From Candidatus Rokuibacteriota bacterium (GTDB lineage Bacteria > Methylomirabilota > Methylomirabilia > Rokubacteriales > JACPHL01): 6,755 bases of DNA. Under the pieces are notes generated by a model. It worked only from the letters and a program-made list of their open reading frames with translations. It made no database searches and had not been told where the DNA came from. The stretch spans positions 1 to 6,755 of the forward strand of contig JACPHL010000240.1 in NCBI GenBank assembly GCA_016188625.1, written 5' to 3'. Position numbers and translations under genes: made by a program. Below are positions 1,923 to 4,778 of the stretch, one piece after another (the stretch's first letter is position 1; every line of letters starts with the position of its first letter).

Positions 1923-2165
1923 GTGGAGATCGAGCGCGACGTCTTCCGGGCCCAGGCCGTCCGCCCGAGCGTCTCGGCCGTGATCTTCCGCGGGGACCGC
2001 CTCCTCCTCCAGCGGTGGGCCGGCGGGGGGCAGTGGGGGCTCCCCGGCGAGACCCTCGGCCTGGAGTTCTTCGACCCCGGGGCCCTCCCCGGGGATCTGG
2101 TCCCGCTCCACCGGATCAGGATCGGGGACGCCCTGGCCCGCGCCGCCACCCCCTTCATCCGCTGA
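1923..2165 (+). CDS. Shortened Nudix-family protein lacking the Nudix box (probably inactive)
   Basis: 80 residues from GTG at 1923 (AAGGTGG 7 bases upstream) to TGA. Residues 14-42 match the first strands of a Nudix hydrolase (SVSAVIFRGDRLLLQRW, then GGQWGLPG, which normally leads straight into the catalytic box). Residues 43-80 match the end of the same fold (LGLEFFDPGALPGDLVPLHRIRI). Between them the Nudix box GX5EX7REUXEEXGU and following strands, roughly 70 residues, are missing. The join falls at residues 42-44 (about bases 2046-2054) and stays in frame, so this looks like an internal deletion. Full-length relatives have about 150 residues and cleave nucleoside-diphosphate-linked substrates using the Mg-binding glutamates of that box; without it catalysis is not expected. 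The frame has kept high-GC codon use and no stops, so the loss is recent or the remnant is tolerated. It ends 8 bases before the epimerase gene and likely shares its transcript. Confidence 0.6.
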   Translation: MEIERDVFRAQAVRPSVSAVIFRGDRLLLQRWAGGGQWGLPGETLGLEFFDPGALPGDLVPLHRIRIGDALARAATPFIR

Positions 2166-2993: not shown

Positions 2994-3091
2994 GATCCCC
3001 GGATCGTCGAGCGGGCCTCAAGGGCTGCCTCGTGTCGCCCGCCGCGGCATGGGGCCCAACGCGGAAGCGCAGGCATGCCGAGGGGGAGCCC

Positions 3092-4778
3092 ATGACCAAG
3101 CACGTCGGTTCCCGGGAGAGTGCGGCCGCGCGGGTGCGGTTTGCGCCGGTGGACGGGGCGCCGGAGCTGTTCAGTCCCGCGTTCCTGGAGTACCTGGCGC
3201 GGCTCCATGACCTGTTCACGCCTCGGGTCCACGAGCTGCGCGCCGGGCGGGCGGAGATGCTGAGCGCGGCGCTCCACCGCGGGCGCCCCCCGGGCGCGCT
3301 TCCGGTCAGCGAGATCAACACGGGCGACTGGCGGGTCCCGCCCCTCCCCGACGAGCTGTGGAAGCCGGGGATCGAGATCTCGGGGCCCTGCTCCATCACC
3401 CCCATGTTCATCAACGCGCTCAACCCCGGCCCGGAAGGCGAGCGCGCCGAGGGCGACCTGGACGACGACGAGGACTCCGCCGGGCATCGCCTGATCGACA
3501 CGGTGACGGCGGCCCGCAACCGGGTGCTGGCGGTCCGGCGCGAGCTCGCCTACTCGGAAGAAGGAGTACCGGCTCGCCCCCGGGGAGCTGCCGTTCTTCA
3601 TGCATCGGGAGCGAGGGCTCCACCTCGACGAGCCGGAGGTGACGGTGGACGGGAAGCCGATCCCGGCCGCGATCCTCGGGATGGCCCTGACGCTCTTCCA
3701 CGCGGGACGCGAGCAGGCCCGGCGGGGCCAGGGGATCTACTTCTACCTCCCCAAGGTCGAGACCCCCGACGAGGTCGCGTGGTACCGCGATCTCTTCGAC
3801 GCGAGCCGCGATCTCCTCCCGCACCTCAAGGGCGCCATGATCAAAGCGGTCATCCTGGTCGAGGCGCTCCCCGCCGTCTACCGGATGGAGGAGATGCTCC
3901 ACGCCCTCGGACCGTACGCCGGCGGGCTCAACGCGGCGCGCTGGGATCTCAAGGCGAGCATCTTCGAGTACGTCATGGCCGATCCACGCCAGGTCTGGCC
4001 GGACCGCTTCGGCGTGGACATCAAGACCACCCCGTTCCTCGCGAACATCTTCCGGCGCCTGGTGGCGATCTGCCTGAGGCGGGGCGCCGTCCCGATCGGC
4101 GGCATGGCCACCGCGCTCCCCAACCCCGACCCGGAGGTGAACCGGGTCGCGGCCGCCGCGATCCGCGCGGACAAGGAGTGGGAGGCCCGCCAGGGGTTCA
4201 TCCGGGCGTGGGTGGCGCACATCTTCCACATGAAGACCGCGGCCGACCCGTTCAAGGAGCTCCTGGCCTCGGGGTGGAGGCCCACGCCCGGGATGGCCGA
4301 TCCCGCCAACTACCCGATCCGGATCGAGGTCCCCGCGGGCCCGATCACCGTCGAGGGGACGCGCCGCAACGCGCGGATGCTCATCGAGTACGTCGAGGGG
4401 TGGTTCGGCGGGCGCGGGGCGAAAGGGATCGACAGCCTGGCCGGGAAGCCCGGGGTCCACCCCGCCCTGATGGAGGACCTCGCCACCGGGCGCATGTCGG
4501 TCGCCCAGGTCGCCCAACGTATCTTCCACGCCGCCCGAACGACCGAGGGCCCGTCCGCGGTGCACGACTTCGCGCTCGTGAAGCGGCTCCTCCAGGAGGA
4601 GGCCGAGGACATCCTCCGGGTCTCGAAGCCCGACCCCGACGCGACCGAGCGCTACCGGAAGGCCGTGAAGATCGCCATGCGCTGGATCAAGAACTACACG
4701 GAGCTGGATTTCCGGAGCCTCGGGTCCTACACGCGGGCCGAGCTCGAGGCCATCGCCGCCGCGCCCGACGCCTTTTAG
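3092..4778 (+). CDS. aceB: Malate synthase (AceB/MSA-like), interrupted by an apparent one-base frameshift
   Basis: Malate synthase condenses glyoxylate and acetyl-CoA to malate in the cytoplasm. ATG at 3092 follows AGGGGG at 3081-3086; an in-frame GTG at 3032 lacks family-like sequence. The N-terminal part (3092 to about 3557) reads PELFSPAFLEYLARLHDLF, TGDWRVPP and ISGPCSITPMFINALNPG, typical of the family. The rest continues in the +1 frame, clearly from AAGGAGTACCGG at 3561 (KEYRLAPGELPFF) to TAG at 4776-4778. Removing one base gives 561 residues, near the roughly 530 usual for MSA. In corrected numbering the active site is complete: Arg174 (HRERGLH), Mg ligands Glu257 (LVEALPA) and Asp285 (AARWDL), 28 apart as in E. 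coli GlcB, and catalytic base Asp462 (LMEDLATG). Unusual: residues about 120-130 are an acidic DLDDDED run where typical MSA has a DFEDANSPTW-like segment. The MFS gene follows by 15 bases. As written, the gene would not give full-length enzyme. The gene symbol is by similarity only. Confidence 0.8.
3557..3562 (+). other. Frameshift site within malate synthase
   Basis: The bases GAAGAA at 3557-3562 lie where coding similarity changes frame. With one A removed the line reads Tyr-Ser-Glu-Lys-Glu-Tyr-Arg-Leu-Ala-Pro, joining both halves smoothly. The upstream frame has no stop nearby and stays open to 6172 as meaningless arginine/proline-rich sequence, so it is not a typical programmed shift with an early in-frame stop. 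A loss of two bases would also fit. Confidence 0.65.

Follow-up and report, generated by a model that had tools for sequence, protein, structure and literature searches.

A malate synthase-like gene of a Rokuibacteriota draft genome is read in two different frames, which raises the question of whether the organism carries a broken gene, whether it bridges the two frames by programmed frameshifting or makes two separate proteins, or whether the break belongs to the assembled sequence and not to the genome. The stretch of DNA analysed here, referred to as the window, comprises all 6755 nt of contig C34, which belongs to a draft metagenome-assembled genome (MAG) of 2.6 Mb in 344 contigs, 84% complete. 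Its nearest sequences are those of Candidatus Rokubacteria/Rokuibacteriota, and the window sequence gave no match that would indicate a phage origin. Malate synthase-like loci for comparison were drawn from a public genome collection as well as from the genomes of 59 relatives, two sets that overlap, leaving 77 distinct full-length proteins for the comparison of column conservation. The coordinates of all features are collected in Table 1.

Concerning family membership, both halves of the gene match one and the same family along their entire lengths, more than would be expected by chance. The downstream part scores 179.5 bits with the PF01274 profile (cut-off 26.4) and hence belongs to the malate synthase TIM barrels; it also matches the PF20659 C-terminal domain and, according to the positions and the alignment with Escherichia coli malate synthase A (PDB 3cuz), keeps the catalytic Arg, Glu, Asp and Asp. 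These four residues, placed by the original prediction at 174, 257, 285 and 462 in its own numbering, are all present as claimed, and all of them lie downstream of the break. The TIM barrel, the four catalytic residues and the PF20659 domain are shared with malate synthase A (TIGR01344), from whose E. coli representative the window gene differs in being broken by a net 11-nt deletion (see below) and in missing the TIGR01344 equivalog cut-off of 594.5, with 240.6 bits for the downstream part. An intact relative also falls below this cut-off, at 280 bits. As neither of the two reaches it, the gene is best termed "malate synthase A-like" instead of "malate synthase A", and since even the intact relative scores so low, the Rokubacteria-type malate synthases appear to be a divergent branch. 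A second malate synthase TIM barrel was not found in the assembled genome, where the gene is single copy. The intact Rokubacteria-type protein of locus L002 and its relatives do not reach even half the TIGR01344 cut-off, in a divergent clade common to SAR202/Dehalococcoidia and Entotheonella.

Table 1. Position of the malate synthase-like gene parts, of the break between them and of other deletions in the same assembly (positions in the window unless a locus and contig are given).
Feature	Position	Strand	Basis
Malate synthase-like gene, upstream part: residues 1-154, N-terminal helical region through first hairpin strand	3092..3553	+	Translation; tblastn, 44-77% identity to relatives; weak TIGR01344 match
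Break interval: 10 nt vs 21 nt in relatives, net 11-nt deletion, predicted hairpin turn	3554..3563	+	Codon comparison; predicted flanking strands
Malate synthase-like gene, downstream part: TIM barrel and C-terminal domain, four catalytic residues	3564..4778	+	PF01274, PF20659; 3cuz alignment; 61-84% identity to relatives
Nudix-type gene, in-frame loss of 70 codons (210 nt) including the Nudix box	1923..2165	+	QWGLPG to DET/GET: 5 codons vs 75 in 10/10 relative copies read
galU homologue, out-of-frame internal deletion of about 58-61 nt	L137 (G000:C22), about 4375-4381
MoxR-type AAA ATPase, 101-nt out-of-frame deletion	L166 (G000:C52), about 3833-3858

Translation of the window places the frame switch within 3554-3563, so that the two parts indeed lie in different frames, as originally reported. 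In the structure predicted for an intact relative (pTM 0.84) this site falls in the turn that connects strand 152-155 with strand 160-163, hence a predicted beta-hairpin turn. It precedes the Pfam TIM-barrel domain, whose profile match starts at residue 173 in the relative, and the break thereby cuts off the N-terminal part of the protein.

The original prediction described the lesion as a one-base frameshift in an otherwise intact gene, caused by an extra A in GAAGAA. This hexamer is found at 3557-3562, and dropping one of its bases does bring the two parts into one frame. The resulting protein, however, would be 4 residues short in a turn which never varies in length among the relatives read. 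Its join, Tyr-Ser-Glu-Lys-Glu-Tyr, also departs from what the relatives have, i.e. Tyr-x-Asp-x-Glu-Lys/Arg-x-Lys/Arg-Glu-Tyr, part of a pattern that, among the closer relatives, reads RELxYxDxE(K/R)x(K/R)EYxIAxGELPFFMHRERG. The distance from the DED motif to HRERG is an ungapped and constant 54 codons in every relative read, which amounts to 162 nt, as compared with 151 nt in the window. Because of this difference, the break amounts to a net loss of 11 nt at the hairpin turn and not to one extra A, a reading that requires two events, an insertion and a 12-nt deletion, where a single 11-nt deletion suffices, and which we consider very improbable. At the junction itself, TAC is followed by T CGG AAG AAG GAG TAC, whose right side encodes R-K-K-E-Y as in the relatives L011, L033 and L064; one 11-nt deletion is thus the economical reading, while its exact end points need the ancestral sequence. 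A direct repeat that could explain the loss was not recognisable locally at the break, and the exact break-site sequence was found nowhere else in the genome, the site being unique.

A second group of explanations holds that the break is functional, either as a programmed +1 frameshift stimulated by AAGGAG or as a split of the enzyme into two proteins. The motif is located at the site (3561-3566, as had been stated), and the downstream part offers an ATG at 3600. In spite of its likeness to a Shine-Dalgarno sequence, AAGGAG is just the ordinary Lys-Glu codon pair, present also in intact relatives such as L002, L008 and L026. It lies 33 nt ahead of the ATG, and such a distance is too far for a start signal. 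The upstream frame runs without a stop as far as 6172, and the site shows neither a slippery sequence nor a homopolymer. In all 109 related loci (window excluded) both parts share one frame; the search for the same shift in relatives that had been suggested was therefore negative (0/109), and the earlier judgement that programmed shifting is unlikely holds. With the relatives negative, no stop in the upstream frame and native codons at the motif, programmed frameshifting can be regarded as effectively excluded. A functional split is not expected either, because no relative is split and the second protein would have to use ATG 3600 as its start codon, which lies within the conserved FFMHRERG motif. 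In the relative L070, the malate synthase-like gene shifts frame near its C-terminus, at about 4017-4044; this is a second, independent break at a different place.

If the break were an old mutation, other damage should accompany it. Outside the break, the window protein is changed at 2 of 240 near-invariant columns (those conserved at >= 97% among 46 relatives), and the intact relatives are changed at a mean of 2.1 and a median of 1 of the same columns. The marks of a decayed pseudogene, i.e. accumulated substitutions, stops and more frameshifts, are not seen, as there is no further stop or shift; the 392 codons from ATG 3600 are stop-free, in agreement with the downstream part having been called undamaged. 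Since the changed columns are as few as in intact relatives, no relaxed selection is visible, and the damage either arose very recently or does not exist in the organism.

Two explanations share this expectation. The first is a real and very recent 11-bp deletion, which would have deprived the strain of the only malate synthase-like gene it had and left a fresh pseudogene. The clean flanks of the break and a window free of Ns speak for it, as does the single malate synthase TIM barrel in the genome, which means that no second copy is hidden by collapse; the absence of further decay fits a very recent event, and both the Nudix loss on the same contig and the deletions elsewhere in the genome could be genuine. 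Against it stand the unbroken gene in nearly all sampled relatives and the similar damage to conserved, housekeeping-type galU and MoxR-type genes, for which a technical cause is easier to accept. Overall, we consider a real deletion the main competing explanation and a serious possibility, if a somewhat improbable one. The second explanation, a local assembly error in the draft MAG, we regard as the best available and as moderately probable. In this case contig ends would have been wrongly joined, or a short gap wrongly closed, with the loss of bases; the 11 nt gone would put the TIM-barrel part out of frame in the sequence, and the gene in the organism itself would be intact, as it is in the relatives.

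Other features of the same assembly bear on this choice. The in-frame deletion in the Nudix-type gene (Table 1) supports a problem of sequence quality at the level of the contig. A survey of 80 contigs of the window's genome against 1.1 Mb of the relative genome G004, in which 88 genes were comparable, yielded out-of-frame internal deletions in two, galU and the MoxR-type ATPase, and on the contig of the latter (C52) there is also an N gap of 20 nt at 3065. Six short gaps of Ns, 5-41 nt in length, occur in 554 kb of the window's assembly vs none in 1.09 Mb of G004. The converse comparison gave 2 candidates in 85 genes of G004, one being the mirror of the galU case, and apart from this mirror the changes in G004 are small and mostly at low identity. 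It should be kept in mind that the frameshift candidates are few (2/88 here vs 2/85 in G004), and that small deletions also occur for real. Neither the Nudix nor the MoxR junction shows a long overlap, so that joins made by the assembler through an overlap of about 10 nt or longer are not demonstrated there. A further locus (L175, G000:C61, about 2721-2768) encodes a large protein that lacks about 333 residues, in frame, with respect to its G004 homologue (net -1047 nt), either for real or through assembly. That all four deletions (in the malate synthase-like, Nudix, galU and MoxR-type genes) are real, and that the lineage, here the sole sampled member of its family, is rapidly losing genes through short internal deletions, seems unlikely to us.

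An assembly error is favoured, in sum, because no other sign of decay is seen, the relatives are unbroken, and deletions inside other genes, together with N gaps, occur in the same assembly. According to Chen et al. 2020 (PMC7111523), errors of local assembly and of scaffolding give rise to wrong gene sequences in public MAGs. The present case resembles those in that the gene is interrupted but not otherwise decayed, and that the draft is fragmented and scaffolded, contains N gaps and has additional internal deletions, whereas it differs in being judged from the assembled sequence instead of read support. As to the cause, the class that had originally been proposed, a recent mutation or a sequence artefact, stands, and the kind, a one-base insertion in GAAGAA, gives way to a net 11-nt deletion.

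What we describe is, then, nothing out of the ordinary: a gene broken in a draft genome, probably through an assembly error. A one-base insertion called from a single sequence is unsafe, as it is the relatives that reveal the 11-nt loss. Were the 11-bp deletion real, malate synthase activity would probably be abolished, because the assembled genome contains no second malate synthase barrel. Gene absences or breaks in this MAG should not be taken as metabolic loss without read support.
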